Origin: Lunularia cruciata | Taxonomy: Eukaryota; Streptophyta; Marchantiopsida; Lunulariales; Lunulariaceae | Direction of reading: 5' to 3' | NCBI GenBank assembly: GCA_948567375.1 | Contig: OX419756.1 | Location: 70,632,333-70,696,332 of the forward strand | DNA: 64,000 nt | Shown: positions 1 to 25,677 of the stretch, one piece after another | Numbering within the stretch: the first letter of the stretch is position 1 | How the letters are laid out: the number at the start of each line of letters is the position of its first letter | The notes under the pieces: model-generated | What the model was told of the DNA's origin: nothing | The model's input: only the letters and a program-made list of their open reading frames with translations | The model's database searches: none | Made by a program: the position numbers and the translations under genes

Positions 1-163
1 GATGGCAGGTTACAGGTTGCCCTCCCCCTAGTGTAGTTATCTCGGTTAGAGTTACATTAGTGGGTGGTGTCTAGTTGGTGTTGGCACTTGGTGGGGCACT
101 TGCAGTTGCGACTTGCGGTTGCAGTTGGTGGTTTGGGTTTGCTGTTGCAGTTATGTGGTCACG

Positions 164-1183
164 ACGGAGTTCTTTGGAGATTCCAGAGGAGTTAGCCCTG
201 TAGTACGCAGTGGGTTTACTCGGAGTGGTGCTCGGTATCAGCCTGTATCTCAGGTCCCAGTGAGGGAGGAGATTGACTCTGAGTTGGAGTTCGACATAGG
301 AGCTGATTCAATTGAGAGTGCACTTGGTGTGTCCGCACCGTTGTTGTGGGACATGGACGTGATTTATGGGGCCTCCAAAGGCCCTAGGCGTTACTCTGGT
401 ACAGTGGGTACTATTGAGTTGGATGATTTCATCCAGGAGTTCGATAGTTGGTGTGATCTGCAGCAGATGCGGAACCCGACTTTGTTCACACCCTTCATGG
501 CATGGAAGGGGTTGTTTCAGCACTTGGAGGGTCCACCGATGGACGACTACCATGAGTTCAGGAGAGCTCATTTGGAGGAGATTGAGTTATGGAGACAGTA
601 TTGGTCTACACACTATGTCTCCATCACTTCAAGTTCGGTGGCCAGGAGTAGGTCGGCTGTACCTACGAGTTCTAGCTCGAGTAGTGTTGGTGGAGCTAGT
701 GGAGGTGCACTAGCTGGAGATAGTGCTACTACGAGTGGAGGTACCGCTGCAGGAGGTGGTGTGGTACCGGGGTTTAACCCCATGGTTGAGTTCTTCTTAT
801 GTTTGAGGCAGAACTACCAGGGAGTGCGGACTGACAAGCTGAGGAGCTTGCAGGAGTTCCAGCGGAAGGCTGGAGAGAGCCTACGCGAGGCATACACTTG
901 CATGAGGCGGCTGATCAGTTTCACTCAGGGAGTTACTGAGGCCCAGGCAGTCCAGTTTTGGTATGGGATATTGGACAGGGAGTTGCGACGTAGAGTTCGT
1001 GATGCTACGTTGTTGCAGGCTACTTCGCCCACTTTGGCAGTAGTCTTTGGTTTGGCTGAGTGTATTGAGCTCAACATGGTGGAGGAGAGAGTGGTGACAT
1101 CTGGATTTGGTAGGGAGACCTCATCCACGGTTGTGACTTCTTCTAGAGTGCAGCAGAGTGCACCACGCCCAGTTGGTTTTTGA
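164..1183 (+). CDS. Gag capsid region of element A1 (ancestral start lost)
   Basis: Structural Gag protein that would form the retrotransposon particle. The central part (about 600-1050) has the retrotransposon-gag pattern: a PMVEFF segment, a LQEFQRKAGESLREAY stretch and a QAVQFWYGILDRELR stretch. A Ser/Gly-rich low-complexity segment lies at 640-770. The frame is open from TTG 113, but the likely true start is codon 164-166, which is ACG here and ATG at the matching place in copy A2 (14584-14582). This copy therefore appears to have lost its start codon by a T-to-C change or to use another start; the next in-frame ATG is at 353. The frame ends at TGA 1181-1183, but the same frame continues directly into the zinc knuckles. 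Confidence 0.85.
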   Translation, partial: TEFFGDSRGVSPVVRSGFTRSGARYQPVSQVPVREEIDSELEFDIGADSIESALGVSAPLLWDMDVIYGASKGPRRYSGTVGTIELDDFIQEFDSWCDLQQMRNPTLFTPFMAWKGLFQHLEGPPMDDYHEFRRAHLEEIELWRQYWSTHYVSITSSSVARSRSAVPTSSSSSSVGGASGGALAGDSATTSGGTAAGGGVVPGFNPMVEFFLCLRQNYQGVRTDKLRSLQEFQRKAGESLREAYTCMRRLISFTQGVTEAQAVQFWYGILDRELRRRVRDATLLQATSPTLAVVFGLAECIELNMVEERVVTSGFGRETSSTVVTSSRVQQSAPRPVGF

Positions 1184-3304
1184 GGACAGGGTGGACAGCC
1201 CAGATCCTATGGAGCGAGTGGAGGGCCTAGTGGAGTTAGACCCTTACCCTCATTTTCGGGTCAGCAGCAGCCAGTGAGTGGTGGTGTTGCTTGTTGGACT
1301 TGTGGTGGACCTCACCATAGGAGAGAGTGTACTCAGGGCAGTGGACCTGATACCTCTGGTGCATCACAGCCAGCACAGAGGCAGTGTGAGCATTGCCACA
1401 GATTTGGTCACACTAGTGACCGGTGTTTTGACCTACACCCGGAGTTACGGAGTGGTAGGGCTACTATGACAGGTAGTAGAGGAGCTCCAGTTCATGGAGG
1501 ACGAGGTGGTAGAGGTGGTGGTAGAGGATCTACACCTAGTAGAGGTGCAGTACCTGCCCTTACTTCTGACACAGCTATGGCTACTCGGATTGAGCAGTTG
1601 GAGCAGAGATTGGCTAGTATGGCTATTGCTCAGAGGAGATCAGATTCGGGTGCTGAGGCTTCCACCTCATATGTTGGTGATAGAGATGCTTTGGACTTCA
1701 TGTGCGGAGAAGCACAGGTGGATGCATCTGCAGCAGTGACTAGGAGTGCAGTACGTGCTCCAGAGCCTAGAGGAGCATCAGTGGAGTTGGACCCACAAAG
1801 AGGAGAGGTTGGGAGACAGGTCAGACTTCCCCAGTCTTTCACGCTATTTGAGGCATTGCAGACGACATCCATGGTTCCTAGACGTCCCAGTGCAGGTGTG
1901 GTAGGTGGTGATGGAGTACCTGATGGAGTACTTGCTAGTCAGCCACCTGCTACTACACAAACTGAGTCTAGCATGATGTTGGGGGCGGCTCAGCTGATTA
2001 TGCGGCATCCTTTATTTTCAGCCAGTGACATGTTTACATTGGGAGTTGACCCAGCCCCAATGTTCCGGTTGGCTGCCACATTGTGTGAGAGTAGGGATGG
2101 TGCAGTTCCTACTACTAGAGCAGAGGTGGTTGGTAGTGGAGCTGACTTGGTTGAGGAGCATGGGATCCGTTCAGCGACCAGTGGTTTATGGCAGGCAGCA
2201 GCGGCTAGACTAGAGGAGTTGCCAGCTAGACCGGTCTTTGAGAGAGCGCGGTTTACACCTGGTGTTGTCCTATTGGATAACCAGAGGGGGATCTTTCGTT
2301 TAGTGAGACCTTCAGGGAAGGTCTATACACCACAGAGAGTCTTGTTAGACTCTGGTGCGCAGCCCCTTATGTTGGGGAGAGCTGCAGTTGTTGGTCTGGA
2401 GTTACGGAAGACCGATGTGGAGAGGTGTCCATTTCAGATCCAGACATCTCTAGGTGGTGGTTCGACACAGTACATCACACGTGGGGAGCTTGTTGTCCAG
2501 GTTCAGCCTGGTCATCCGATTGATAGCTCAGTGGTGAGAGCTCAGGCTATTGCGACGATAGCTGAGTCATATGATGTGCTAGTTGGGGGAGCAGTGTTAT
2601 ACTCTATGGGTTTCAGTATTGACTATTGGGAGGAGACAGCCTCTTATAGACCTGGTTGGCAGTCTGGTGAGGGACGGGTATGTCGCCTACCAGTACGCTT
2701 TAGTAGTGGCAGTCTTGGCTCACTACAGTCCGGGACCATGGCAGCATCAGTTTTGGCTTTCAGCGGTGCAGTTACTTGGCCTGGTGACTTGTTGGAGGGG
2801 AATGCCCATGCAGAGGATACTCCAGTACCAGAGGAGATCACTCGGCTATGGAGTACGAGTGGGATTGTCCCATCCACCTTGGATGTTCCATTGTGGAGTT
2901 CAGAGGAGGCATTGCAGCAGCATGCAGATCAGTTGGTGCAGCAGGCTTGGAGTGGAGCCTTCATACCATCAAGGGATGAGTGTGAGGATGAGCCTCCAGA
3001 GGCAATTGCTTTGACACCTCTAGATACCACACTCATTGCTTGGCAGTATCCAGTAGAGGGGATATGTCTATTAGAGTTGTTTGGTGGGATCAGCACCGGA
3101 CTAGCTGCGGTGTTACAGGCGGGTATCCGAGTACAGAGGTACTTGTATGTAGAGAGAGATGAGACTGCTAGGCAAGTCTCTCTACATCATGTGGCACACT
3201 TGGCCTATCGGTATCCAGAGTTATTACCGATGTCAGCAGTCAGAGGTTACCAGGAGATATTTCCCTACCAGGAGATATTTCCTTACTGGGGGCGCATGAC
3301 CTAG
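1184..3304 (+). CDS. A1 nucleocapsid zinc knuckles, aspartic protease and N-terminal half of a C5 DNA methyltransferase
   Basis: Same frame as Gag, directly after its TGA. Two zinc knuckles come first: CWTCGGPHHRREC (from 1289) and CEHCHRFGHTSDRC (from 1388). A Gly/Arg-rich stretch follows (1480-1540). The aspartic protease is near 2330-2650, with active site LLDSGAQPLMLG and a distal YDVLVGGAVLYSMGF. After a linker of unknown role comes methyltransferase motif I, LLELFGGISTGLAAV (3068-3112), with a following RYLYVERDE that fits motif II. The GISTGL core resembles the animal and plant DNMT3 pattern GIATGL more than the DRM or CMT patterns. The frame then runs into an 18-bp direct duplication (about 3249-3284) and stops at 3304; motif IV continues in another frame, so a frameshift lies between about 3225 and 3300. 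Confidence 0.88.
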   Translation, partial: GQGGQPRSYGASGGPSGVRPLPSFSGQQQPVSGGVACWTCGGPHHRRECTQGSGPDTSGASQPAQRQCEHCHRFGHTSDRCFDLHPELRSGRATMTGSRGAPVHGGRGGRGGGRGSTPSRGAVPALTSDTAMATRIEQLEQRLASMAIAQRRSDSGAEASTSYVGDRDALDFMCGEAQVDASAAVTRSAVRAPEPRGASVELDPQRGEVGRQVRLPQSFTLFEALQTTSMVPRRPSAGVVGGDGVPDGVLASQPPATTQTESSMMLGAAQLIMRHPLFSASDMFTLGVDPAPMFRLAATLCESRDGAVPTTRAEVVGSGADLVEEHGIRSATSGLWQAAAARLEELPARPVFERARFTPGVVLLDNQRGIFRLVRPSGKVYTPQRVLLDSGAQPLMLGRAAVVGLELRKTDVERCPFQIQTSLGGGSTQYITRGELVVQVQPGHPIDSSVVRAQAIATIAESYDVLVGGAVLYSMGFSIDYWEETASYRPGWQSGEGRVCRLPVRFSSGSLGSLQSGTMAASVLAFSGAVTWPGDLLEGNAHAEDTPVPEEITRLWSTSGIVPSTLDVPLWSSEEALQQHADQLVQQAWSGAFIPSRDECEDEPPEAIALTPLDTTLIAWQYPVEGICLLELFGGISTGLAAVLQAGIRVQRYLYVERDETARQVSLHHVAHLAYRYPELLPMSAVRGYQEIFPYQEIFPYWGRMT

Positions 3305-4350
3305 AGAGACATGGGCCTATTCACTTGGTGATTTCTGGATGGCCATGTCAGGGACATACACGTGCGGGCCGTGGTTTGGGTCTTCAGGATCCTCGTTCTG
3401 GTGTGTTTTGGGAGATGTTACGGATACTACGACATCTCCAGGTTCATCAGTCTGTTTCTCCAGCTTACCTTTTGGAGAACGTTCCATTGATGGGTGATTC
3501 TTGCACTAGAGTGGTGGCGAGTACACATCAGGTCCATTCTTGGATGGGACCTGCTGTATTGTTAGATGCAGCCAGAGTGGGATCACGGGCTCATCGTCTT
3601 CGTCTTTGGTGGACGAACCTTTTACCCAGAGAGGTTCTACAGCGTAGTTATGATGGGATTCAACGACTAGACCACATTCTTGTTGATGATATCTTGGATG
3701 TTGGACGTCAGTCTCAAACAATGGTAGTGGCTGATAGGTCACCTATGGCAGTGGTGAACCTAGTTGGACAGCCTAGAGCTGCATTTCCCACACTCATGAG
3801 TTTCCCAGGCTCTCATGCTTTTCAAGAGGGAGGACCTGGACTTGTTTGGGACTCACAGTTACAGCAGTTGGTGGAGCCCAATGCTGATGAGAGAGAGCGG
3901 GCAATGGGTTTTTGCACCGGTATTACCGTTGTTCCAGCAGTGTCAGAGGCATCCAGGTGTCAGGTGTTAGGTCAGGCTATGGACCTGAACTGTTTGACCT
4001 GGATTGTGAGCCTTGGTTTGGCAGAGCAGCGTAGGATGCGCTTGATAGGCATCACCACTCGGACACTTGTGAGCCCTATGCCTATCGAGACGATTCAGGC
4101 ACATGCTGGGGGCGATGGACCGAGTGGACATGGTATTCTTGGGACACATCCAGTAGCTACTAGGGAGAGTGGTCTACTTGGAGTCCATCTAGGTGAGCGT
4201 GGGCTACTTGGATTACACCCTTGGTCCACATGGGATGCAGCCAGAGGACGTATGGAGCTTGCAGCCAGAGTGGAGGGAGTTTTTCACACAGAGGTTGGGA
4301 CCTCTAGTGGTCGGGAGCATGACACCATTGCTCCCAAGGGCCCAGTGTAG
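3301..4350 (+). CDS. A1 C5-cytosine DNA methyltransferase, catalytic C-terminal half
   Basis: Transfers a methyl group from S-adenosylmethionine to carbon 5 of cytosine; normally a DNA-modifying host enzyme, here inside a retrotransposon polyprotein. Visible motifs in canonical order: motif IV GWPCQGHTRAGRG (3337-3375) with the catalytic Cys at 3346-3348, then DPRSGVFWEMLRIL; motif VI YLLENVP (3466-3486), the ENV that binds the target cytosine; motif VIII RVGSRAHRLRLWWTNL (about 3568-3615); and motifs IX-X ERERAMGF followed by QVLGQAMDLNCLTWI (about 3892-4005). The order is not the rearranged order of plant DRM enzymes. The frame is that of the downstream RT, so the enzyme sits between protease and RT. 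A Gly-rich linker follows and is cut by TAG 4348-4350. Motif I is complete but in another frame because of the frameshift upstream. The C5-MTase assignment is secure; the exact subfamily is not. Confidence 0.9.
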   Translation, partial: LERHGPIHLVISGWPCQGHTRAGRGLGLQDPRSGVFWEMLRILRHLQVHQSVSPAYLLENVPLMGDSCTRVVASTHQVHSWMGPAVLLDAARVGSRAHRLRLWWTNLLPREVLQRSYDGIQRLDHILVDDILDVGRQSQTMVVADRSPMAVVNLVGQPRAAFPTLMSFPGSHAFQEGGPGLVWDSQLQQLVEPNADERERAMGFCTGITVVPAVSEASRCQVLGQAMDLNCLTWIVSLGLAEQRRMRLIGITTRTLVSPMPIETIQAHAGGDGPSGHGILGTHPVATRESGLLGVHLGERGLLGLHPWSTWDAARGRMELAARVEGVFHTEVGTSSGREHDTIAPKGPV

Positions 4351-4755
4351 CAGCCAGTCAGTACATCTTCCACTCCTACTACAGTTACAGAGGATACTTG
4401 GGAGCCAGATCTTGGACCCAAGCTTACTGGAGAGGAAAGACGGAGGGTTTGGAGGTTCTTGAGGAGTCACACGAGTTGTTTTGCCTTCAGTATGAAGGAT
4501 TTGGGTGCTCTGAAGGGACATGGTATACGGATTGAGCTGACTAGCAACACACCTGTTTTCCGACGTCCTTATCGATATAGTGAGATGGAGAGGACATTGA
4601 TTCAGAGCCGGAGTAGTGACCTTTTTGAGGCTGGTTTGGTGGAGATTTCACATGGAGAGTATGCATCAGTGACAGTGATGCCAGCCAAGAAGGATATGCA
4701 TGGCAACTATACAGATAGGCGGATGTGTGGAGATTACTGTCCTATCAACCGATAG
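4351..4755 (+). CDS. A1 linker and N-terminal part of reverse transcriptase
   Basis: Continues the same frame after TAG 4348. The first 40 codons are a Thr/Ser/Glu-rich linker. From about 4495 the RT fingers begin: MKDLGALKGHGIRIEL, TPVFRRPYRYSEME, the SDLFEAGLVEIS segment, VMPAKKD, and MCGDYCPINR, which corresponds to the usual CVDYRxLN motif of Ty3/gypsy RT. The segment ends at TAG 4753-4755, directly before TRADRYAMPTPEEIFD, where related RTs normally have Gln or Lys. A CAG-to-TAG change would explain the stop. Nothing else interrupts the RT across this point. Confidence 0.88.
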   Translation, partial: QPVSTSSTPTTVTEDTWEPDLGPKLTGEERRRVWRFLRSHTSCFAFSMKDLGALKGHGIRIELTSNTPVFRRPYRYSEMERTLIQSRSSDLFEAGLVEISHGEYASVTVMPAKKDMHGNYTDRRMCGDYCPINR

Positions 4756-7440
4756 ACCAGGGCTGATCGGTATGCCATGCCTACACCGGAGGAGATTTTT
4801 GATGCGATTGGGCATGCAAAGGTCTTCAGTACTTTGGATCTTCGAGCGGGATATCATCAGTTGCCGATCAGGGAGGAAGATAAGTCCAAGACAGCATTTT
4901 GGGCTATTGATCCTCACGGCAAGGATGTGTTATATCAGTGGAGATTCTTACCATTTGGGTTGAAGAATGCTCCTGCTGAGTTCCAGAGGGTCATGGATAG
5001 GATCCTAGCTGGACTGGATTTTGCTCGGTGCTATATTGATGACATTTTGGTGTATAGCACTACTATGGAGGAGCATGAGAGACAGTTGTTGGAGGTGTTT
5101 GAGAGGTTGAGATCTCATGGATTCAAATTACATCCTGGGAAGTGTAGGTTCTTCCATGAGCAGGTTGAGTATTTGGGTCACACTATCTACCCCGGAGGAC
5201 TTGGTGTTCAGCAGACCAAGGTGGAGGCTATTGCACGTATTCCTCGGCCTACGGATGTGAGCAGAGTGCGAGCATTCCTTGGGTTGGCGAACTTCTATCG
5301 CCGCTATGTTAGAGGATTTAGTGCCATTGCCAAGGCCTTGACGAAGCTGACCAAGCTTACACAGGAGTGGTGTTGGGGAGATGAGCAGGAGAGAGCTTTT
5401 GTAGAGCTCAAGGAGAGGTTGACATCTGCTCCTATTTTGAGGAGACCGATCAGGGGACGACCATTTCAGGTTCACACTGATTGGAGTATGTTGGGGCTTG
5501 GAGCGGTGCTCACCCAACATGATGATGAGGAGAAGGAGTTTGTGGTGGCCTATGCTAGTCGCTCCAACAATTCAGTGGAGGCGAAGTATAGTTCATATGA
5601 GGGAGAGTGCTTGGCAGCAGTTTGGGTAGTAGCACATTTCCGATGTTACCTATTTGGTAACCCCTTCACTCTCATCACTGATCATCAGCCGCTGAAGTGG
5701 TTGATGGAGTCCGACAAGCTTTCAGGGAAGCTTGCACGATGGGCTCTGATTTTACAGGAGTATGATTTCACGGTTGTTCACAGACCTGGAGTGGTGAACC
5801 GTGATGCAGATGGGTTGAGTAGAAACCCATGTCCCAGCCAGCAGGATCAGACCGAAGCACGTTGGCATGGTGAGACAGATGAGGAGATGGTGCCAGGTTG
5901 GCATGCATCAGCCTTTCTGTGTATATTTGCAGAGACATTGGTGGTATCTCTCTCAGCGCATACAGGAGGAGTTATTGAGGTCACAGATCCAGAGAGTGAA
6001 GATATTGGTACAGTTCAGCGAGACATTCATGATGATGTCTTAGTGATGGACTATCTTTGCACTGGTGTTGTGGGTGGCACAGTTGGGGCCAAGGAGAGAG
6101 ACCGTGTTCTTCAGCGAGCCAGACGGTTCAGATTGGAGGGTAGACACCTTTTGTGTGTATGGGAGGATGGTAGAGTGCGAGTAGTACCACTTCCATCACA
6201 GAGACCACAGTTGGTCTGTCATGCTCATGAGGAGCTAAGACATTTTGGAGTAAAGCGTACATATAGCTTACTCCAGAGTCATTATTGGTGGCGCGGTATG
6301 CAGACCGAGGTACAGCAGTTTGTTGCCAGATGTGTGGTTTGTGACCAAGTTAGAGCATCATTCAATGCTCCTACGCCACAGTTACACCCATTACCTATCA
6401 TGGGATTGGGTTACCGTTGGAGTTTGGACTTCACCGGACCTTTACCACTGATTGTGAGACATCATCGGTATGTTTTGGTGATGGTGGAGCACTTCTCCAA
6501 GTGGATTGAGTTGGTGGCACTTCCTGACAAGTCTAGTGAAGGGACAGCTTACTCGTTCCTGGATCGAGTTCTTAGTCATTTTGGTGCACCAGCTGAGGTT
6601 TTGACTGATCAGGGTACAGAGTTCTTGGGAGAGTTTCAGGTTTTGTGTGACAAGGCTTTGATTGATCATCGTACTACATCCCGAGATCACCCTGAGGCAG
6701 ATGGCTTAGCAGAGAGAGTGGTTCAGACGGTGAAGAGAGGATTGCGAAAGTATGGTTTGCAGAGAGGCCACTTGGGAGATTGGGATCTCCAGTTACCTTG
6801 GTTGGCCATGGGCTATCGGTTCAGCCGGCAAGCCTCCTTAGCATCCTTCTCTCCATACTTTCTACTCTATGGACGAGATCCAGATTTACCTGCAGCCATT
6901 CGTCGAGATGCTACTGTAGTTTTGGACTTGGATGACCCTGATGTATGGATGAGCGCATGTTCTCAGCGGGCAGAGATCTTTCGGAGAGTGATGCCGATGG
7001 CCTTCAAGAACTTGGCGATTGCTCAGCATAGAGATACTTTACGCTATGCTACCATTCGAGGAGGAGGTTATAGACCCTCGATCCATCGATTTCATCCAGG
7101 CGACTATGTATATCTACAGCAGACAGCACCGACGACACTTGATGTTTCTACAGGCCACACTATCTTGAGAGTGCGCAAGGTTTTGCCATCTGGAGTCCTT
7201 GTGTTAGAAGGACGTGATGGTGTTGTTCGGAAGGATCATGTGCGCAATTGTGCGCCATGCCACCTCCCAAACATTGATGGTACTATGGACCCAAGCTTGG
7301 CACTTGTACGTGCAGGCTTGAGGTGTATGTTATGTGGCTCTTCTGGTGGAGCTGCTTCTATGTTAGTGTGTGATAGCTGTTCGAGAGGATGGCATATGGC
7401 ATGTATGACTCCTCCCCTCACGGTGGTTCCTCAGGGATAG
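4756..7440 (+). CDS. A1 reverse transcriptase, RNase H, integrase and start of PHD finger
   Basis: Copies the element's RNA and inserts the cDNA. RT: STLDLRAGYHQL (4829), FLPFGLKNAPAEFQR (4945) and the catalytic CYIDDILVYS (5029-5060). RNase H (5460-5830): catalytic acids in HTDWS, YEGE, ITDHQPLKW and RDADGLSR all present. Integrase (6190-6800): zinc-binding HAHEELRHFG and CVVCDQ, then the DDE residues in SLDFTGP (6424), LTDQGTEF (6601) and DGLAERVV (6700). No catalytic residue is visibly lost. After the integrase C-terminal region (PGDYVYLQQ, VRKDHVRNC) comes not a chromodomain but a Cys/His cluster of PHD type. TAG 7438-7440 ends the frame six bases before the last Cys pair. Confidence 0.93.
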   Translation, partial: TRADRYAMPTPEEIFDAIGHAKVFSTLDLRAGYHQLPIREEDKSKTAFWAIDPHGKDVLYQWRFLPFGLKNAPAEFQRVMDRILAGLDFARCYIDDILVYSTTMEEHERQLLEVFERLRSHGFKLHPGKCRFFHEQVEYLGHTIYPGGLGVQQTKVEAIARIPRPTDVSRVRAFLGLANFYRRYVRGFSAIAKALTKLTKLTQEWCWGDEQERAFVELKERLTSAPILRRPIRGRPFQVHTDWSMLGLGAVLTQHDDEEKEFVVAYASRSNNSVEAKYSSYEGECLAAVWVVAHFRCYLFGNPFTLITDHQPLKWLMESDKLSGKLARWALILQEYDFTVVHRPGVVNRDADGLSRNPCPSQQDQTEARWHGETDEEMVPGWHASAFLCIFAETLVVSLSAHTGGVIEVTDPESEDIGTVQRDIHDDVLVMDYLCTGVVGGTVGAKERDRVLQRARRFRLEGRHLLCVWEDGRVRVVPLPSQRPQLVCHAHEELRHFGVKRTYSLLQSHYWWRGMQTEVQQFVARCVVCDQVRASFNAPTPQLHPLPIMGLGYRWSLDFTGPLPLIVRHHRYVLVMVEHFSKWIELVALPDKSSEGTAYSFLDRVLSHFGAPAEVLTDQGTEFLGEFQVLCDKALIDHRTTSRDHPEADGLAERVVQTVKRGLRKYGLQRGHLGDWDLQLPWLAMGYRFSRQASLASFSPYFLLYGRDPDLPAAIRRDATVVLDLDDPDVWMSACSQRAEIFRRVMPMAFKNLAIAQHRDTLRYATIRGGGYRPSIHRFHPGDYVYLQQTAPTTLDVSTGHTILRVRKVLPSGVLVLEGRDGVVRKDHVRNCAPCHLPNIDGTMDPSLALVRAGLRCMLCGSSGGAASMLVCDSCSRGWHMACMTPPLTVVPQG

Positions 7441-7458
7441 TGGTTATGTCCTAGATGT
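7324..7458 (+). other. PHD finger at the integrase C-terminus, cut by an in-frame TAG
   Basis: The Cys4-His-Cys3 spacing is visible: CMLC (7324-7335), CDSC (about 7372-7383), then HMAC (7393-7404), PPL..VPQG, the TAG at 7438, and WLCPRC (7441-7458) in the same frame, with TGA at 7462. The PPL, VPxG and WxCPxC landmarks are the classical end of a PHD finger, a histone H3-tail reader. In chromoviruses a chromodomain occupies this place and guides integration, so a targeting role is plausible, but that is inference. The reader is incomplete unless the TAG is read through. Confidence 0.82.
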
Positions 7459-7621
7459 ACTTGACCTATAGCTAGTTCATTCTTTATATGGTATAGATTG
7501 CAGACATGCGACTAATGATGGGGCTCCATAGCACCCGGCCTCCTGATCTTTGCCCATTAGAGGGTATACCATATACTTAGAATAGATGGCTATCTGGAGT
7601 TAGAGGGACCTAACCGCCAGC

Positions 7622-7633
7622 TAGGGGGGCGAT
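7622..7633 (+). other. Polypurine tract of A1
   Basis: A run of purines with six consecutive G lies directly before the 3' LTR start TGTGGCAC at 7634, the usual place of the plus-strand primer for LTR retrotransposons. Confidence 0.75.
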
Positions 7634-8190
7634 TGTGGCACTTTAGAGTCTATGTATGACTTATGTGTGAGTTGTGCTTTTATAGTGTATGATGTTGACA
7701 GCGATGTATGTTGTGTAGCGATGTATATACGCACGACAGCTATCACGCCATTTGTAGTTCCGCATCTAGATGCTTGGACACTGGAGTTCCAGTGATGGTA
7801 GTTAGAGTTATTCTAGCTGTTTCTCAGGGACTACTTTCCGACGGTTAGATTTTGTGTTTGGGGTACTGACTTCACGGTGGGGCCCACCGTCACTTTGCAC
7901 CGTTTGCACCGTCAAGTGTGCCGTCAGCGGGACCGTTAGGGTTTCAGGGCTAGCTCGAGTCCAGGGGGTATAGTTTCGAAGTGATCTCCAGAGAGCTCAC
8001 TTCTCTGATGTTGAGCCTTCGAGTTCCTGGCTATGGTGGACAGAGGCCGGCGAGCGTCACCTGGATTCTCTATGCTTGAGTGGGTGTGGCTTGACTGTAA
8101 TCAGTGCCCAGTTGTTGGTAGTTTATAGAGTGACAGATCAAGTACTGATCTGAGTTGAGTTGAGTTGAGGATGTTAAGCAATCTGATTAT
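7634..8190 (+). repeat. 3' LTR of A1, truncated at 557 bp
   Basis: Starts TGTGGCAC after the polypurine tract. The part from about 7860 on aligns with the inverse complement of the A2 LTR at 15448-15780, for example around GGGTACTGACTTCA and the GAGTGGGTGTGGCTTGA stretch. In A2 the LTR continues another 484 bp beyond the equivalent point (15447 down to 14964), so a complete A LTR should be about 1.0 kb. Here it stops after CTGATTAT, where a fresh LTR start follows. It contains a GC-rich segment with several CACCGT and CCGTCA repeats (7870-7935). Confidence 0.85.
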
Positions 8191-8295
8191 TGTGGCACTT
8201 TAGAGTCTATGTATGACTTATGTGTGAGTTGTGCTTTTATAGTGTATGATGTTGACAGCGATGTATGTTGTGTAGCGATGTATATACGCACGACA
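8191..8295 (+). repeat. First 105 bp of a second A-family LTR (A3)
   Basis: Base for base the same as 7634-7738 by eye. It begins exactly at the LTR terminus TGTGGCAC inside the 3' LTR of A1, which is what a same-orientation insertion of another A element would leave. It ends abruptly at 8295 against the RNase H region of B1, so the rest of A3 has been deleted or moved. Confidence 0.85.
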
Positions 8296-9069
8296 TTGAA
8301 GAATGGGTCTTGAAGACACCATATGCTTTAACTTCTGGAATGCTTCCTCATGCTTGGTGGTCCATTGGAAGCTTGAGTTCTTTCCCAAGAGGTCAGTCAA
8401 TGGTCCAGCCACGTGAGCATAATAGTGGATGAACCGTCGGTAAAAACTGGCCAATCCATTGAATGCTTGTACTTCGGTAGCATCCTTCGGGGTAGGCCAA
8501 TCAGTAATGGCCTTGATCTTCTCTTCTTCCATCTTGATCCCCTCTGATGAGATCTTATGACCCAAGAAGGTAACCTCCTTCTGCCAAAAAGCACACTTTG
8601 ACTTCTTGCAGTAAAATTTCCACTATCATAGTCGTCTTAGGACTTCTCGCACATGATTCCTATGTTCTGCCTCTGTCCTACTATAGATTAAGATATCATC
8701 TAAGAACACTACCACGGACTGATCTAATAGTCCCTCCAACACCCGATGCATATGATCCATGAAGACTGCTGGAGCATTAGTGAGTTCGAAAGGTAGAACT
8801 CTCCACTCAAAATAAGCATACCTTGTGCGAAAGGCAGTCTTTTGCACATCCTCTCCTTCAATAGGAATTTGCAAATAGTTGCTACAAAGATCTAGCTTGG
8901 AAAAGTAGTGTGCTCCACTTAATTGATCAAGCAGGTCATCGATCCGAGGCAAGGGATATGCATTCTTCACGGTTTGCTTATTGAGCCAACGGTAATCAAT
9001 ACAAAAATGAAGTCCTCCATCCTTCTTTGGAACAAATAGTACCGGTGCTCCCCACGGCGAGGTACTATG
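8296..9069 (-). pseudogene. B1 reverse transcriptase and start of RNase H (broken)
   Basis: RT motifs in antisense order: [15 protein letters not shown] (about 9050-9010), [24 protein letters not shown] (8970-8890), [10 protein letters not shown]-type palm and the catalytic [12 protein letters not shown] (about 8720-8680). The thumb follows in a second piece (8565-8296: VQAFNGLASFYRRFIHYYA and LLGKNSSFQWTTKHEEAFQKLK). Stops and a frameshift near 8600 separate the pieces. The usual PFGLTNAP is PFELTNAP here. TGA at about 9070 stands where copy B3 has CGA (Arg in DFIRHSTSP), a CpG-type mutation. Confidence 0.85.
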
Positions 9070-9906
9070 TCATATGAAATCCTTCTCCAACAACTCTATA
9101 AGTGTTTTTTGGAACTCCTCTAACTCCTTTGGTGAGAGCCGATAGATTGGTCTACTCATTGGAGTACTCCTTGGCAATAACTTGATCTTGAAGGGCATAC
9201 CTCGATCAAAGGGTAATCCCTTTGGCAGATCATCCAGAAACACATCTGCAAACTCCTGAACTATCCGATCAACCATTGCTTGATGCGGCACCTGGCCCTC
9301 CTCAGATTGTTCTTGTGCAATCGGCTTGATCCACACAGCAAATACAGACTTATCTTCCTCCAAAGCTTGCTCTATGGCTGCTTCATTAACAAAATTCCCT
9401 TCTTGGGACTCATCTCCCTTCCAAATTTGCTCTATGGCTACCTTCTCAACAAACTTCCCATCTTGGGACTGACTATTCTTAGGTGTCTTACTCAGAGGTG
9501 CCAGACAACCTAATTGGAAATTCCTACCTTGGTGTTGTACTTGAATTTGACGTCGGGTCCAATCGAATTGAACCTTATGACGTTCAAGCCAAGGTAGACC
9601 CAGAATGATATCATAGTGTAGAGGTGCCACTACAAACCTCATACACTCCGAATACTCCTTCCCAATCTTGAAGGTAACAGGATGCGAGGTGCGGAATGCA
9701 GAACCTTTTCTACCATCCGCCATCATCAAACTACTTTTAATCATTGGCTTGATAGGAATACCCAATTCCTTTGCTACTTGCATAGATATGCAATTCTCTG
9801 AACTTCCAAAATCAACCAAAATCTTACAACCCCGATTAGATATCGTACCTTGCAAGTGAAGCAAACTTGCATAGGTCGAGCCTTCAATCCCATTGGAACT
9901 AATCAA
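9070..9906 (-). pseudogene. B1 protease-like domain and pol linker
   Basis: The pol N-terminal part is open over 278 codons. The protease fold is clear: GCKILVDFGSSENCISM, KELGIPIKP, then HYDIILGLPWLERHKVQFDW. The catalytic triplet reads Asp-Phe-Gly instead of Asp-Ser/Thr-Gly. A linker with two 20-residue repeats (KFVEKVAIEQ and NFVNEAAIEQ type) follows, then the RT lead-in FADVFLDDLPKGLPFDRG and RPIYRLSPKELEE. The start used by software (ATT/ATG region near 9906) is arbitrary; in the intact element this would be part of a Gag-Pol polyprotein. Confidence 0.85.
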
Positions 9907-9929
9907 GCTCCCAATAGGCGGTTTGAAAT

Positions 9930-10826
9930 CTCCTACTGGGATTCTTTGTTTCCCTGATCATTTTGTTCCACAAACTCCATCTGGGCAACTTGTCAAGGTC
10001 GCCCATTCCTAAGTGGGCATTCAGCAATGTGATGTCCAACTTGGCAACAATAAAAGTAACCTCCATTTTGTCATAATCTTTCTCTATCTGCTGTGCCAAG
10101 TGGTTTTTGTTGGATAACATCAATCTCCATTGGTACCGGTTCTTCCACTCGTGGTACTAGTAAGTTTTATGTAGGTCGAGGTCAAGACCAAGTTGTCGCA
10201 ACTAAGGAATCAAAACGCTCAGCCAATTGCATGGCTTCTTCTATGTTCTGTGGCTCTCGCATGGTCACCTCCAATCTGGTTCGTGACTTCAATCCTCGCA
10301 CAAATCAATCCAGAACTTCACCTTCTTGGATATCTGGAATTTGCATGATGATATTCTGAAATTGTGTGATGTAGCTTCTCACTGAGCCAATCTGCCTCAA
10401 CTCCGCCAATTTATCTCGTGCAGCTCGGGTGGCATTTATAGTCTGAAATTGACTAAGCACTGCATCCTTGAATTTTGCCCATGTCAAAATTGGTGTAACA
10501 ATTTGTCATTCAGCTCTTTCTACTTGGAATTGCCACCAAAGTTTTGCCATCCAACTGGCTAGAAGCCAAGAGAATTTGTTTCCGCTCGTCTTGAAGACTG
10601 GTGGCTTCAAAGTAACGTTCACAGTCAAACACAAAATTCTCCACTGTGCCTGGAAGATTCTTGCCTCCAAATACCTTGGGTTTTGGAAATCGAATGCAAT
10701 CTTCTCCATCTCAAACTGGCGCTCTGTCTATTTGTTCTCGTCGTTGCTGGTCTCGTTCATCCAACAATCGAGTAAGATGCTCAATTTGTTGTTGCATTGC
10801 AAGGATAACATCCGATATTGCCGCCA
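9930..10826 (-). pseudogene. B1 Gag with zinc knuckle (broken)
   Basis: Begins at the ATG at 10826 (MAAISDVILAMQQQIEHL, a short coiled-coil-like start). The capsid core is recognisable: NFVFDCERYFEAT, DERKQILLASS, WAKFKDAVLSQFQTINATRAARDK and GSVRSYITQFQNIIMQIPD. A degenerate knuckle follows near 10060-10020 (a Cys replaced by Tyr; compare CFYCHQVGHRIAEC in B3). At least one stop after VERAE and a small deletion before KLWWQF break the frame, so no functional Gag can be made. Confidence 0.8.
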
Positions 10827-11522: not shown

Positions 11523-13565
11523 GATAATAACTTCGGATACCGATAGGCCAAGTGTGCCACATGATGTAGAGAGACTCACCTAGCAATCTTATCTCTCTCT
11601 ACATACAAGTACCTTTGTACTTGTATGCCCGCTTGTATTACCGTAGCTAATCCAATGCTAATCCCACCAAACAACTCCAATAGACATATCCCCTCTATTG
11701 GATACTACTAAGCAATGAGTGTGGTATCCAGAGGTGTCAAAGTAATCAACTTTGGAGGCTCATCCTCACACTCATCTCTTGATGGTACAAAGGCTCCACT
11801 CCAAACTTGTTGCACCAATTGATCTGCATGTTGTTGCAATTCCTCCTCTGAACTCCATAGTGGAACATCCAAGGTGAATGGAACAATCCCACTTGTACTC
11901 CAAATCCGAGTGATCTCCTCTGGTATTGGAGTATCCTCTGCATGGATGTTCCTCTCTAACAAGTCACCAGGCCAAGTAACTACATCACTAAAAGCTAAAA
12001 CTGATGTTGCTATGGTCCCAAACTATAATGAGCCAAGACTGCCACTACTGAAGCATACTAGTAGGCAACATACCCGCCCCTCACTAGACTTCCAACCTGG
12101 TCTATAGGAGGTTGTCTCCTCCCAATAGTCAATGCTGAAACCCATGGAGTATAACATTGCTCCCCCAACTAGCACATCATATGACTCAACTATTGTCACA
12201 ATAGCTTTAGCTTGAGCTTTCACCACTGAACTATTAGTCTGATGACTAGGCTGAACCTGGACAACAAGCTCTCCACATGTGATGTACTATGTCAAACCAC
12301 AACCTAGAGATGTCTGGATCTGAAATGGACACCTCTCTACATCGGTCTTTTGTAACTCTAGACCAACTATAGCATCCTTCCCCAACATAAGGGCTGCGCA
12401 TCAGAGTCTAACAAGACTCCCTATGGTGTATAGACCTTCCTTGAAGGTCTCACCAAACAGAAAATCCCCTTTTGGTTATCCAATAAGACAACACCAGGTG
12501 TGAACCGCACTCTCTCAAAGGCCGGTCTAGTTGGCAAGTCCTCTAGTCTAGCTACTGCTACCTGCCATAAATTACTAGTCATTGAACGGATCCCATGCTC
12601 CTCAACCAAGTTAGCTTCACTATCAACCACCTTTGCTCTAGTAGTAGGAACCACATTATCCTTACTCTCACAAAGCGTGGTAGCCAACCAGAACACTGGA
12701 GCTGGATCAACTCCTAATATAAACATATCACTAGCCAAAAACAAAGGGCATTGCATAATCAGTTCAGCCGTCCCCCAACATCATGCTAGACTCATTTTTG
12801 TGTAGTAGCAGGTAGCTGACTAGTAGGTAGTCTATCATGCACTCCATCACCACCTACCACACTTGTACTAGGACATCTAGGAGCCATGGATGTCATCTGC
12901 AATGCCTTAGATAGCATGAAAGATTGGGGAAGTCTGACCTATCTCCCAACCTCTCCTCTTTGTGGGTCCAATTCCATTGATGCTCCTCTAGGCTCTGGAG
13001 CATGTACTGCATTCCTAGTCACTGCTGCAAATGCATCCACCTGTGTTGCTCCACACATGAAGTCCAAAGCATCTCTATCATCAGCATATGAGGTGGAAGC
13101 CTCAGCACCCAAATCTGATCTCCTCTAAGCAATGGCCATACTAGCCAATCTCTGCTCCAAATACTCAATCCGAGTAGCCATAGCTATATCAAAAGTAGTA
13201 AGGGTAGGTATTGCACCTCTACTAGGTGTAGATCCTCTACCACCTTGTCCTCCATGAATTGGAGCTCCTCTACTACCTGCCATAATAGCCCTACTACTCC
13301 ATAACTCCAAGTGTAGGTCAAAGCATCGGTCACTAGTGTGACCAAATCTATGATAATGCTCACACTGCCTTTGTGCTGACTATGATGCACTAGAGGTATT
13401 AGGTCCGATGCCCTAAGTACACTCTTTCCTATAATGAGGTCCACCACAAGTCCAACAAGTAACACTACCACTCATTGGCTACTATTGACCTAAAAAGGAA
13501 GGGAAGGGTCTAACTACAATAGGCCTTCTAGTTGCTCCATAGGATCTAAACTGTCCACCCAATCC
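11523..13565 (-). pseudogene. A2 zinc knuckles, protease and linker up to the methyltransferase
   Basis: Counterpart of A1 1184-3230. Recognisable blocks: CWTCGGPHY-like knuckle (about 13450-13415), the PALTTFDIAMATRIEYLEQRLASMAIA coiled segment (about 13220-13125), RFTPGVVLLDNQKGIFCLVRPS (about 12510-12440), YDVLVGGAMLYSMGFSIDYWEE (12185-12120), and DTPIPEEITRIWSTSGIVPFTLDVP (11940-11865). The protease active-site region around 12400 is damaged by stops. The last part (11700-11523) corresponds to motif I and the following segment of the A1 methyltransferase, showing that A2 also carried the enzyme. Confidence 0.85.
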
Positions 13566-14584
13566 TCAAAAACCAACTAGGCGTGGTGCACTCTGCTGCA
13601 CTTTAGAAGAAGTAACCATTATGGATGAGGTCTTGCTACCAAATCTAGATGTCACTACCCTCTCCTCCACCATGTTGAGCTCAATACGATTAGCCAAACC
13701 AAAGACCACTACCAAAGTGGGCAAAGAACCTGTAACAACGTAGCATCACAAACTCTATGTTGCAACTCCCTGTCCAATATCCCATACCAAAATTGGAGTG
13801 CTTGGGCCTCAATAATTCCCTGAGTGAAATGGATCAGTTGCCTCATGCGAGTGTATGCCTCACGTAGGCTCTCTCCGACCTTCCGTTGGAACTCCTTCAA
13901 GCTCTTCAGCTTGTCAATTCGTACTCCCTGGTAGTTCCGCCTTAAACACTAGAAGAACTCCACCATGGGGTTAAACACCGATACTACACCACCTCCTACA
14001 GTGATACCTCCACTCATGGTAGCACTATCTCTAGCTAGTGCACCTCCACTAGCTCCACCAACACTACTTGAGCTAGAACTTGTGAGTACAACCAATCTAC
14101 TCCTGGCAACCAAGCCTGAAGTAATAGAGACATAGTTCAGAGACCAATATTGTCTCCATAACTCAATCTCCTCCAAATGAGCTCTCCTGAACTCATAGTA
14201 GTCATCCATCGGCGGACCCTCCAAATTTTGAAACAACCTCTTCCATGCCATGAAGGGTGTAAATAAAGTTGGGTTCCGCATCTACTATAGATCACACCAA
14301 CTATAAAACTCATGGATGAAGTCATCCAACTCAATGGTACCCACTATACCAGAGTAATGCCTAAGGCCTTTGGGGACCCCATAAATCTCGTCTATGTCCC
14401 ACAACAATGGTGCGGACACACTCAGTGCACTCTCAACTGGATCAGCTCCTGTGTCAAACTCCAACTCAGATTCAATCTCCTCACTCATTGGGACTTGAGA
14501 TATAGGTTGATATCAAGCACCACTCCAAGTAAACCCACTATGTACTGTAGGGCTATCTCCTCTAAAATCTCCAAAGAACTCCAT
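13566..14584 (-). pseudogene. A2 Gag
   Basis: Counterpart of A1 Gag, starting at the ATG at 14584-14582 (MEFFGD), the codon that is ACG in A1. The same landmarks are present: SELEFDTGAD, TIELDDFIHEFYSWCDL, RNPTLFTPFMAWKRLFQNLEGPPMDD and ESLREAYTRMRQLIHFTQG. Stops and a small deletion near 13720 break it. It ends at TGA 13568-13566, the same codon as the TGA at 1181 in A1. Confidence 0.87.
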
Positions 14585-14963
14585 TGTGATAAAGCAACCA
14601 CAACCACAATCGCAAACTACAACAGCAAGTACCCCACCAAGTGCCAAAACCAATGTAACTTTAACTGAGACAACTACAATAGGGGCAAAGGCAACCTATA
14701 AACCTGCCATCACAACACGTATTCTCACGGTCTGCAGGTCATCACTTCCTACCTCACAAGAAAAAAATTAAGATATTCTTACTGGTCATCACTCCAGCCC
14801 CACTATCAAGAGCAAAACAGAACACCAATGCTCAAAATTCAAGGCACCTCATACAAACACGGTGCACAAACAGGAAGCATAGAATGGAGGAGGCCAATCA
14901 CAAGAATGCTAAACTAAAACCCTCCATCTCATAAATCAACACGAGATTGACTCTGGCACCATT
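14585..14963 (-). other. A2 leader and primer-site region
   Basis: On the minus strand the LTR end is followed by AATGGTGCCAGAGTC (about 14961-14947), which resembles the iMet primer site TGGTATCAGAG with mismatches. The part near 14760-14600 aligns with A1 positions 1-163, including GATGGCAGGTT and GTTACATT. No protein is encoded. Confidence 0.6.
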
Positions 14964-15865
14964 TGGCATTTGATATAATTGGAGTACATATCTACTTCCT
15001 GAGCTACAAGGATTACTTAGGATCGGATCAAAGTTCTTCTTGCCAAAATTTGACGTAAATCCTTCACAAAATCTGTCATAAAATCTGACATAAATCCCTA
15101 AAAATAGCCAACTGCCAAATCCTCCACTAACTCCTCACTTGAGCCAAATTGGAAAAATGGGTTCAAATGGGTTCATACAATCTCTAATTTGCAAGGATGT
15201 ACTCTCAACTCCACCTTCAATTTTAGGTTCTAAGCTCAACTCGTAACAAATTGGTCTTGAGCTCAATCACAATTATCTCTTGAAAATTGCTCCTCCTTGG
15301 CTCTAAACTTTTCCAGCACTTTTTCACACACTCTCTCTCAAGGAAATCTAAACTACTCAATTGAGACACCATGATCCACCAAGCTTGGAGATATCACCAA
15401 CACTCGCAATTCATGCATCCAATTTCCCCTTGACTCACTTTTTAGATATAATCAGATCATTTACAACTCAAATCAATTGAACTCAAATCAATACTTGATC
15501 TGATCCTCAACAACTTGCCAACAATAGGGCATTGATTACAATCAAGCCACACCCACTCTAGCTAAGAGAATCCATGTGACACTCATCGGCTTTCTGTCCA
15601 CTCTAGCCAGGAACTCAAAGGCTCAACATCAGAGAAGTGAACTTTTTGGAGCTGCACTTACAAGGTATACTCCTAATTTTGACCTAGGTCTCATCCCAAT
15701 GGTCCCATTGATTGCACACCCGATGGTGCGGATGGTGCAAGTGACGGTGGGCCATGCCATGAAGTCAGTACCCTAAACAGAAATAGTGATGGGCTGGTAG
15801 AAATAGGAGGAAGCTCCATATTATCTTGTGGAGATGGTAAGATGGTAGCGGTGGGAGGAGACTCC
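14964..15865 (-). repeat. 5' LTR of A2 (partial, interrupted by a solo C LTR)
   Basis: 15448-15780 aligns with A1 3' LTR 7865-8190 in inverse orientation; 14964-15447 is the LTR end missing from A1. The outer end meets the C-family LTR at 15866. The first 140 bp or so of the A LTR, including TGTGGCAC, are not recognisable beyond that LTR, so the C insertion was accompanied by loss or strong divergence. Confidence 0.75.
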
Positions 15866-20440: not shown

Positions 20441-21249
20441 TCTTTAGAAGGCAAGATAATGTTCCGTGTTCAATTCTACATTAGGCAGAAGGAGGCTATG
20501 AGAGCTCACTTGGAGAGAACATTAGGAGAGGAGAGGGCTGACCTTATGTTAGAGAACCAAGATCCATTTGTATAACCTGTAGTTCATTATGATGTCTTTG
20601 AGGTGATTTTGTACATCTTGTACACATGAGAGGAATTGGAGAGATTGTGTGAGGTGGATTGCAGATTTTGGGGATTAAGGTGATTTTGGGCAAAATCTCA
20701 AGTTTGAGATCTGGACTTGAAATTTTTACACATGATAGCTTGGGTTATCTTTCAGTTAGCACACTTAAAATTATTGTGAGAACTACTATGCGCACTAGGC
20801 TAGAATTTTTGAAAGTTGATAGGGTAAAGTGCTCCCGCAACTACATGCTCAAGAAAATTCAAGAAAATTAAGTGCATTGTATCCTACCTTCTACCACAAA
20901 AATTAGAGAGAGATCGTTCTTGCACAGGGAGTTATGAGTTTTTGAAGTGAAGGGGGTGGTTTTCACATATTTTCACAGCACACATATTTCAGACCAAATC
21001 TGAAATATGTGTGCTGAATAGAAAGGTGTCTAGGCCAAATGGTTCAATGAAACGATCTGAAATTTTGTAGGGAGGGACACCCTAGAGTTTTGATTAAGTG
21101 TGAAAAATTTCAGAGGACCATGATATAGTGGTTGGGAGATTTGAGTGACATTATGAGGAAGGGTCAATTCTACAGAGTGGAGATCTCATGCATGAGGAGT
21201 TTGAGATCAACAAAAAGCATGTTTGAGTGTTTGGATTCATCTTGGGAAC

Positions 21250-21726
21250 ATGGAGTGTCATCAAGAGTGGAAATTGAGATTATACAAGGTTCCCCAAGGG
21301 TTTGAGATGATTTTAGGGGTGAATTTGAGAAAAAAAAAAGAGTTTACAATAGAATTTGAAGAGAGTGTTGAGAGGATCCAAAAACCTACACCACTTGGAG
21401 GAAAGAGTGAGTCTAAGTGCTTTCTGTGTGGAGAGAAGGGATATAAGGCAAGTTCATGTCCATTGACGTTTGAGAGCAAGAGATTGAGGGAAAGGAGAGG
21501 CTTACTTGACTTGGGTTTGCATGTTGGACGTTCTTCACGAAGATTGGGAGGGAGAAGATCTAAGACCAAGGAGTTGTGTGAGGTTTGTGGAGTTGAAGGA
21601 CTTCCAAAAGGACATGAGTGTAGTGGAGTAAAATCACTTTTGGAGACTTTGGTGAAGGATCTTGCAGAGAGTCTTAGTATAGCTACAAAAATACTACTAC
21701 CTTCATCAACTAGTTCTCAAGATTAG
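21250..21726 (+). CDS. Leader ORF of element C with two Cys clusters, function unknown
   Basis: A 158-codon frame from ATG 21250 between the primer site and Gag, in a different frame from Gag. It has two zinc-binding-like clusters: CFLCGEKGYKASSC (a CCHC knuckle with Tyr for His) and CEVCGVEGLPKGHEC, separated by a very basic segment (LRERRG, RSSRRLGGRRSK). The C-terminal part is a possible amphipathic helix (LLETLVKDLAESLS). I know no standard name for it. It could be a nucleic-acid-binding accessory protein of the element or a displaced nucleocapsid relic. It has no internal stop, unlike the neighbouring gag and pol. Confidence 0.5.
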   Translation: MECHQEWKLRLYKVPQGFEMILGVNLRKKKEFTIEFEESVERIQKPTPLGGKSESKCFLCGEKGYKASSCPLTFESKRLRERRGLLDLGLHVGRSSRRLGGRRSKTKELCEVCGVEGLPKGHECSGVKSLLETLVKDLAESLSIATKILLPSSTSSQD

Positions 21727-21964
21727 TGATGGAAATAATCTTTCAACTTATGGATAAACTATCCATGAGGGTTCGATTAATATGCACTCTAGGATTTGAT
21801 GTTGCTATAGAAATCTTGGAGTAACCTAAACCTTTTGTGTTCCCTAGGGTGAATTACTCTCAAATGGTGTTAGTCATGTATACACTCTATTATTTATAGA
21901 GTGAGAGAAAAGAAAAGAGAAAAAAAGAAAAATTAAGAGAAGAGAAAGATAGTGAGAGGTTAAG

Positions 21965-25671: not shown

Positions 25672-25677
25672 AGAGCA

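Follow-up and report, generated by a model that had tools for sequence, protein, structure and literature searches.

A1, an element in the 64-kb window (the whole stretch of DNA that was analysed), is a decayed member of a gypsy-type retrotransposon family that is abundant and was recently active in its plant host, probably a liverwort. In this family a predicted DNMT3-type cytosine methyltransferase (DNMT) forms the C-terminal part of ORF1 (gag-protease-DNMT), with the reverse transcriptase (RT) ORF in the same frame past a single UAG. DNMT and RT are apparently joined only through readthrough of this stop. The order in A1 is gag-protease-DNMT, then RT-RNase H-integrase-PHD; Pfam and family profiles bear out the original prediction of a Ty3/gypsy-type order, with gag, aspartic protease (PR) and RT-RNase H-integrase all present. 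The features of A1 and of an older copy, A2, are as follows.

113..1426, +: gag region in frame 2, comprising the capsid part and a pair of zinc knuckles at about 1292-1426 (frame translation)
2261..2659, +: aspartic protease region LLDSGAQPLMLG (family profile E=3.8e-53)
3062-4023, +: DNMT overall, putative DNMT3-type, non-rearranged cytosine methyltransferase, PF00145
3062..3265, +: N-terminal part of DNMT with motif I, frame 2 (family profile E=4.1e-24)
3250..3301, +: site of an insertion private to A1, which puts its DNMT out of frame (32 distinct copies among 40 aligned loci)
3262..4023, +: DNMT motifs IV to X, frame 1 (family profile E=1.8e-129; PF00145; DNMT3A top in PDB)
4348..4356, +: UAG-CAG-CCA between gag-PR-DNMT and RT, one frame on both sides (copy alignment; context rule from PMC2754532)
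4564..5814, +: reverse transcriptase and RNase H (Pfam and family profile)
6184..6891, +: integrase, H2C2 and core (Pfam and family profile)
7321..7464, +: PHD finger, integrase C terminus (PF00628 E=4.7e-7; family profile E=2.8e-17)
7623..7633, +: polypurine tract directly 5' of repeat B (sequence)
7634..7738, +: repeat B, first copy, TG...CA (sequence comparison)
7741..8190, +: repeat A, 3' copy (matches the 5' ends of L028, L033, L035 and L038, and A2 partly)
8191..8295, +: repeat B, second copy, element end (100% identical to first B)
11525..14711, -: A2, older copy, ending inside DNMT (86% identical to A1 1-3226)
15448..15783, -: 5' repeat A of A2, partial, without a following B (sequence comparison)

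The repeats follow a DIRS-like order, A-coding-B-A-B. All 40 scored copies end in B-A-B on the 3' side; on the 5' side, A stands without B in all 4 copies for which the left end was retrieved, and likewise in 7 copies inspected at their A end. Target duplications of 4 bp, read by eye, were present in 4/4 copies, and the polypurine tract occupies the same place in L028, L033, L035, L038 and L041, with a similar form in L002. The 3' blocks of the 40 scored copies, from 4556 candidates, are 98-100% identical in every case, as expected of an abundant family with recent activity. The enzyme travels with it: among the 40 copies chosen by 3' repeat, DNMT was present in 31 of the 31 checked, comprising 25 (A1 included) with DNMT 4.2-4.6 kb upstream and 6 of 6 others that were fetched, the other 9 being unchecked. 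Hence the enzyme is, as had been proposed, a family trait and not a single capture. A2, for which the start of the enzyme had been claimed, is cut off within DNMT.

Frame translation of A1 placed motif I (LLELFGGISTGL, starting at 3068) in frame 2, and motif IV (GWPCQG), motif VI (LLENVP), motif VIII (RAHRLRLWW) and then the C-terminal part in frame 1, all where they had originally been located. An HMM search with Pfam DNA_methylase, proposed at that time as a check, gave a significant match in frame 1 (PF00145 against 3172-4347: E=1.7e-7, 31.4 bits, cut-off 22), and no second Pfam domain was matched in the DNMT's open piece in the Pfam search of A1. When the same piece was searched singly against PDB, DNMT3A was found at 6e-8; a 9-row family profile ranked DNMT3A (2.8e-21) before DRM2 (7e-9), HhaI (2e-8) and DNMT2 (1e-5), in agreement with the predicted DNMT3-like enzyme. 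Both halves of the A1 domain, in frames 2 and 1, were recovered by profile from family members, and, judged by these scores, the DNMT match in A1 is far above chance level. Among 67 family domains with a length of 255 aa or more, the catalytic Cys is kept in 64/66 filled rows, the motif VI Glu in 63/67 and the motif VIII His in 65/65. A phylogeny had also been called for; the trees, which took in one DNMT3 sequence and left out DNMT1, CMT and plant DNMT3, split DNMT3A plus the family from HhaI plus a phage enzyme (support 100/98). Among the C5 methyltransferases compared, DNMT3 appears to be the nearest kin of the family's enzyme.

None of the other 31 distinct copies shares the insertion by which A1 loses its DNMT frame; in some of them different indels occur at that place. 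Copies matching from residue 1 were rejected as a subfamily with A1's frame break because the alignment shows differing indels; they had been picked because the query's first 30 residues were out of frame. Stops at 1181-1183, 4753-4755 (in the RT region) and 7438-7440 (cutting the PHD finger) are present in 4/18, 2/18 and 2/18 aligned copies, A1 counted. They are lesions, the remaining aligned copies being without them, and are not private to A1, as they recur in 3/17, 1/17 and 1/17 of the others.

Decay of this kind was rejected for the TAG at 4348, which is found in all aligned copies (18/18 full copies) and in L002, a distant relative with 52% DNMT identity. UAG is followed by CAR-YYA in 32/32 distinct copies (alignment of 40 loci) and also in L002; across the whole window CAR-YYA follows 5 of 2173 TAG triplets. 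UAG-CAR-YYA is the type I, tobamovirus-type leaky stop context (PMC2754532), and in A1 CAR-YYA comes right after the UAG and the frame continues. No stable RNA structure was seen 3' of the stop (z 0.85, one sequence). The location of DNMT "inside Pol", as first described, therefore has to be revised: the domain ends gag-PR ORF1, and the UAG separates RT from it in every aligned copy. Because the UAG in its leaky context follows DNMT, the enzyme would be expected at Gag level, and RT and integrase via readthrough only. Relatives P0134, P0146, P0172 and P0250 are without a stop between DNMT and RT, so Gag-level expression of DNMT is not universal.

A PHD finger at the integrase terminus is a new observation here. 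It was detectable in 56 of 113 RT-plus-integrase pieces, part of the remainder being truncated. Top PDB matches include KDM5A, KDM5B, CHD4, UHRF1, PHF21A and AIRE, and for the finger of relative P0122 the top match is lysine demethylase 5A. These fingers read unmodified H3 tails. The integrase-end finger thus seems nearest, by sequence, to readers of unmodified H3K4.

DNMT-bearing relatives were found in liverworts, mosses, Closterium and a volvocine alga (a chlorophyte), which is likewise new here. In the RT tree all DNMT-bearing elements fall within one 57-row clade (support 99), which also takes in Klebsormidium proteins P0179 and P0195; the published K. nitens DNMT was not identified among the matches. 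Tetrabaena-type (type II) elements carry DNMT between RNase H and integrase, in the order RT-DNMT-IN, and P0170, which adjoins them in the RT tree, is without DNMT between RT and integrase. That type II is surely nested in type I was not upheld: a quick tree gave this result, but in a careful tree a single clade of type I could not be rejected (p=0.256). The single viral match, L001, was set aside as looking like a phage-type C5 methylase amid phage-type genes. A range that extends from a chlorophyte to liverworts points to a long-standing component of a gypsy clade in the green lineage, and not to a capture in one alga.

Between the A1 family and L002, identity is 52% in DNMT, 46% in PR, 68% in RT-RNase H and 29% in gag. 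In gag, PR and RT, variants common to at least two copies have fewer amino-acid changes than singletons, although L040 gag, without match to A1 before 1209, inflates the gag singletons. DNMT shared variants gave 15 nonsynonymous to 17 synonymous changes (p=0.009; 17 copies, L040 included) and 14 to 14 without L040 (p=0.056; 16 copies), a trend in the same direction, in a small test whose DNMT outcome hinges on L040 and whose copies were also picked by DNMT match. Integrase fails the shared-versus-singleton test (17 nonsynonymous, 4 synonymous). The evidence for constraint on DNMT within the family is suggestive only. Singleton C-to-T changes per site occur at 2.8x (CG) and 2.4x (CHG) the CHH rate, from which it follows that the copies are methylated; host methylation alone explains this deamination. 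CpG o/e is 0.47-0.48 and CHG about 1.2 in three copies, against 0.26 and 0.54 in other window DNA; CpG depletion was not used as a trace of the element's enzyme, a clean control being lacking.

Why should a parasite carry the type of enzyme with which its hosts silence such elements? We propose that most ribosomes very probably stop at the UAG, so that the methyltransferase would be packed into the particle at Gag stoichiometry, with RT and integrase very probably supplied by readthrough; that the enzyme is probably active and kept since it helps the element; that in the particle or preintegration complex it might methylate CG of new double-stranded cDNA; and that the PHD finger might hold integrase on chromatin with unmodified H3K4, where the new copy would land already marked as silent. 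Methylation of own cDNA or of the target is a hypothesis already raised in de Mendoza 2018 (PMC5890265). A parasite may thus mark its own DNA with its hosts' silencing tag; the position of DNMT ahead of a leaky-type stop allows its dosage, packaging and timing to be predicted, and the finger adds a targeting idea for integration. Taken whole, from ORF1 DNMT and leaky UAG to Gag-level active enzyme, cDNA marking and PHD targeting, this explanation has slightly better than even chances in our judgement. A bolder version is doubtful: a Gag-level DNMT3-type writer and an H3K4me0 PHD reader may have delivered premethylated copies into H3K4me0 chromatin since early green-plant history, the writer having moved once in the polyprotein (RNase H/integrase, Tetrabaena-type) or having been taken twice.

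The enzyme could instead act in trans, methylating host or competing DNA (viral, other transposons, host promoters) and shifting silencing to the element's or the host's gain. DNA methylation in yeast is on record for SymbioDIRS enzymes and human DNMT3A, with genome and plasmid named for DNMT3A (PMC5890265), accessory domains have been suggested to act against viruses (PMC6338049), and the amount of enzyme is expected to be high if made at Gag level; however, K. nitens, which bears such elements, is described as having a plant-like methylome, and we consider trans action unlikely. Self-restraint, in which the enzyme marks new copies for silencing, lowers its own transposition and spares the host, is named as a possibility in PMC5890265 and is compatible with the C-to-T excess at CG and CHG, but would be weak if any in a family so abundant, recently active and uniform in its 3' blocks; we rate it lower again.

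Modification of RNA, or nucleic acid binding in the particle without DNA methylation, would agree with the KnitGypsy-Dnmt3 enzyme giving no methylation in yeast, a result its authors call inconclusive, and RNA methylation was raised by the same authors for LINE enzymes (PMC5890265). Such a role is improbable given that DNMT3 is nearer than the tRNA enzyme DNMT2 (3e-21 vs 1e-5) and that the catalytic Cys is so widely kept. That DNMT is an inert passenger, persisting by hitch-hiking, fits the broken state of A1 itself and a constraint that is no more than suggestive, yet the motifs are kept in relatives from liverworts to a chlorophyte, and we give this reading very little credence.

A retrotransposon with a DNMT3-type enzyme is of a kind already known from KnitGypsy-Dnmt3 of Klebsormidium nitens, where DNMT lies in the Pol ORF, is an independent capture and has Ka/Ks under 0.2 (PMC5890265). 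We compared that element by its published description, its sequence not being recognised among the matches. Both have gypsy domain composition, a non-rearranged, intronless DNMT3-type enzyme and, by the K. nitens figure legend, a DIRS-like repeat order, which PMC5890265 spells out for DIRS as A-coding-B-A-B. In contrast to KnitGypsy-Dnmt3, which was reported from a single alga with its enzyme in the Pol ORF, DNMT here ends the gag-PR ORF1 before a leaky-type UAG, the host is another one, probably a land plant, the family is abundant with relatives from chlorophyte to bryophytes, and a PHD finger ends the integrase, the word PHD being absent from the main text of PMC5890265. Like SymbioDIRS-Dnmt3 and SymbioLINE-Dnmt, the family is a retroelement bearing a cytosine methyltransferase. 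The precedent first cited holds as to published retrotransposon-borne methyltransferases, but de novo CG methylation, in yeast, is described there only for the dinoflagellate SymbioDIRS enzymes (PMC5890265). Unlike SymbioDIRS (tyrosine recombinase) and SymbioLINE (a LINE), the A1 family has a DDE-type H2C2 plus rve integrase and 4-bp target duplications, and no tyrosine recombinase of the SymbioDIRS-Dnmt3 kind was found in it. As in chromoviruses (plant Ty3/gypsy; PMC6317226), a module of histone-reading type ends the integrase, here a PHD finger and not a chromodomain; neither PHD nor methyltransferase appears in the main text of that survey. With the DNMT3 family the enzyme shares its best sequence match and the motif order I to X, and the presence of a zinc finger at another place in the element may recall the DNMT3 ADD domain; unlike in DNMT3, the PHD finger is located apart from the enzyme, and its closest matches are KDM5 and CHD4 fingers.

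The element A1 at the window start, of Ty3/gypsy type, encodes a cytosine methyltransferase, as the original prediction had held: in a Pfam search the domain passes PF00145 (E = 1.7e-7). Its DNMT3-like character was likewise borne out, DNMT3A being the best PDB match both for the single sequence (6e-8) and for a nine-row family profile (2.8e-21). With the same profile, DNMT3B scored about 5e-20, and weaker matches were obtained to 4onj (6.5e-11; titled merely "DNA methyltransferase", and which we take to be tobacco DRM), DRM2 (7.4e-9), HhaI (2.3e-8) and DNMT2 (9.9e-6). Of the 67 family domains with 255 aa or more, 63 have the motif VI Glu; the catalytic Cys occurs in 64 of 66 filled rows.

The window starts inside A1, a gypsy-type element on the plus strand that reaches 8295. 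Its coding content is divided between two frames:

A1, frame 2, plus strand: gag with two zinc knuckles, protease, first part of the cytosine methyltransferase
A1, frame 1, plus strand: remaining methyltransferase, RT, RNase H, integrase, PHD finger

A1 itself is not functional, because a private insertion breaks its methyltransferase frame and stops occur at 1181, 4753 and 7438. A stop is found at these positions in 4, 2 and 2 of the 18 aligned copies, respectively (A1 counted), and copies free of them exist. Unlike these, the stop at 4348 is present in 18 of 18. An older copy, A2, terminates within the methyltransferase. Other features were noted around A1, which seems to have inserted in the first of them:

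8296-9957, minus strand: another gypsy element (RT, protease), adjoining A1
near 42765-43846 and 49537-50445: the same kind of element as at 8296-9957 again (by eye)
21205-26522, plus strand: further decayed gypsy element with protease, RT and integrase
28483-30048, minus strand: copia-like piece (PF07727, E = 2e-5, below its cut-off)
36842-39131, minus strand: long repetitive stretch with several frames open and recurring words, which resembles a tandem array more than a gene
55680-56909, minus strand: glutaredoxin-type gene (PF00462, E = 1.6e-22), perhaps with introns; the sole clear host gene seen in the window

Twenty copies of 9.9 kb were fetched, three of which (L034, L036 and L037) match A1 only partly. 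An unbroken ORF1 comprises gag, protease and methyltransferase in that order, reaches up to 1,448 aa between stops (L023) and terminates at TAG CAG CCA. ORF2 follows directly in the same frame, extends up to 1,037 aa (L025) and closes with TGA after the PHD finger. The enzyme had been predicted to lie inside Pol; this placement needs correcting, since the methyltransferase ends ORF1 before the TAG and RT belongs to ORF2. When the stop context was aligned for 40 loci, representing 32 distinct copies with A1 included, the ORF1 stop was TAG in 32 of 32, followed by CAG CCA in 30, CAA CCA in one (L019) and CAG CTA in one (L030); CAR-YYA fits all 32. The distant relative L002, a 9,285-bp contig from a cyanobacterial metagenome bin, has an equal layout with TAG CAA TCA. 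Within the window, CAR-YYA follows 5 of 2,173 TAG triplets (both strands). At the tobamovirus UAG in plants, the CAR-YYA hexamer is essential for readthrough, measured there at 32% (PMC2754532). The ORF layout, the TAG-CAR-YYA context and the tobamovirus rule together suggest that the methyltransferase would most likely be a Gag-side product and RT-integrase-PHD the readthrough product. In proteins of four relatives (P0134, P0146, P0172 and P0250) the DNMT runs into RT without a stop; the stop layout is thus not universal.

We searched the host genome (565,766,749 bases) for copies. With the frame 1 methyltransferase as query, 105 of 16,377 first-look candidates were scored (92-100% identity), and 62 of the 105 lack an internal stop by our own count; with a relative's domain, 125 of 10,908 were scored, all 125 spanning residues 1 or 2 to 316-318 of 319. 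Both scored sets (105; 125) are best candidates rather than a random sample and give no copy-number total. So that the enzyme would not choose the copies, the 3' repeat block was used as query: 40 of 4,556 candidates were scored, all full length within a base or two and 98-100% identical. A methyltransferase match lies 4.2-4.6 kb upstream in 25 of these 40 (A1 included), as taken from the two genome match lists, and the enzyme was found in 6 of 6 further copies fetched, three of them with a stop, frame break or deletion. It is therefore fixed in the family as far as seen, being present in all 31 of the 40 copies that were checked, and is, as predicted, a family trait and not a single capture.

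Constraint was assessed by comparing variants in at least two copies with singletons of other domains (Fisher test); DNMT singletons were omitted from the baseline, being biased by the selection of the copies through their DNMT match. In 17 copies, shared DNMT variants were 15 amino-acid/17 silent against a singleton baseline of 388/163 (p = 0.009); gag gave 18/26, PR 2/7 and RT-RNaseH 9/16, and no constraint was shown for integrase (17/4). The divergent gag of L040 inflates this baseline. Without L040 (16 copies, baseline 171/77), the values were 10/22 for gag (p = 0.0001), 2/7 for PR (p = 0.006), 8/13 for RT-RNaseH (p = 0.007), 14/14 for DNMT (p = 0.056) and 17/3 for integrase (p = 0.20). 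Thus gag, PR and RT are clearly under constraint, and for DNMT the signal is suggestive only. Singleton C-to-T changes per site were higher at CG (0.296) and CHG (0.252) than at CHH (0.106; 18 copies); the copies are therefore methylated and decay by deamination, at rates that do not tell which enzyme is responsible. Plant DNMT3 genes proper occur outside angiosperms (PMC6453930), and a host DNMT3 is therefore expected.

Protein searches gave 159, 1,219 and 13 matches; sources among those listed (the best 120, the best 120 and all 13) include Sphagnum, Marchantia, Calypogeia, Riccia, Closterium, Klebsormidium and Tetrabaena. When 252 matched proteins and six pieces of the window and L002 were mapped for domains, the orders PR-DNMT, DNMT-RT and PR-DNMT-RT-IN emerged. 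In three proteins, P0185, P0251 and P0200 (the chlorophyte Tetrabaena), and in part in P0103 and P0120, the methyltransferase lies between RNase H and integrase; it has either shifted its position in the polyprotein or been acquired twice. Klebsormidium P0179 and P0195 are RT-IN with or without PHD and hold no DNMT within the protein piece. In the RT tree, all DNMT-bearing elements fall inside one 57-row clade (99), with P0227 and P0234 (protease and RT in one protein, no DNMT) outside it, and the window groups with Marchantia and Calypogeia (99). A careful DNMT tree joins the family with one Marchantia, one Calypogeia and two further proteins (100/99) and unites the enzymes located between RNase H and integrase (100/99); the DNMT3A position and deep branches lack resolution. 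These placements make a liverwort the probable host. L002 (CADCWO010000201.1) is a eukaryotic-type retrotransposon filed under a cyanobacterial bin, and the similar P0046 is labelled a bacterial (Obscuribacterales) MAG protein; both are probably contamination of public bins.

A PHD finger is detectable in 56 of 113 RT+IN pieces, the rest being truncated or without the finger. That of the relative P0122 matches lysine demethylase 5A (1.1e-15) and further CHD4, KDM5B, ATXR5, UHRF1, PHF21A and AIRE. These proteins recognise H3 tails in which K4 is unmethylated or R2 is unmodified.

The 3' end has the order B-GC-A-B, in which the two B repeats (7634-7738 and 8191-8295) are identical and a polypurine tract stands immediately 5' of B. 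Four copies fetched with left ends start with A and lack a B there; their 4-bp target duplications are TGTG, GTGC, GAGA and TCAC (by eye). Within each insertion the A repeats are 95.8-98.4% identical, and the insertions are therefore recent on an evolutionary scale. The B-GC-A junction, CACGACA-GC-TGTCACG, is found in L002 too; the integrated form may result from opening of a two-repeat circle there. At 7634-8295 and in L043-L046, split repeats in DIRS-like order (A-coding-B-GC-A-B) accompany an integrase of DDE type and target duplications of 4 bp, a combination that fits a two-repeat circle opened at the palindromic junction ACAGCTGT. Where the 5' repeat A ends (about 190-215 in L035, and equivalents), a perfect inverted repeat, TCTGAT-TAC-ATCAGA, occupies the place expected for the primer binding site; no tRNA-type TGG start was found there, and self-priming is possible.

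Our searches of open-licence PMC papers turned up no account of the bryophyte family, leaky stop or PHD finger. A 2025 survey (PMC12344493) restates that some DNMT3 lie within retrotransposons of streptophytes and dinoflagellates; bryophytes are absent from its available text. The precedent is KnitGypsy-Dnmt3 of Klebsormidium nitens (de Mendoza et al., PMC5890265). That paper gives the order A-coding-B-A-B for DIRS elements and, in one of its legends, assigns it to KnitGypsy as well; in this repeat order the element described here is like both.
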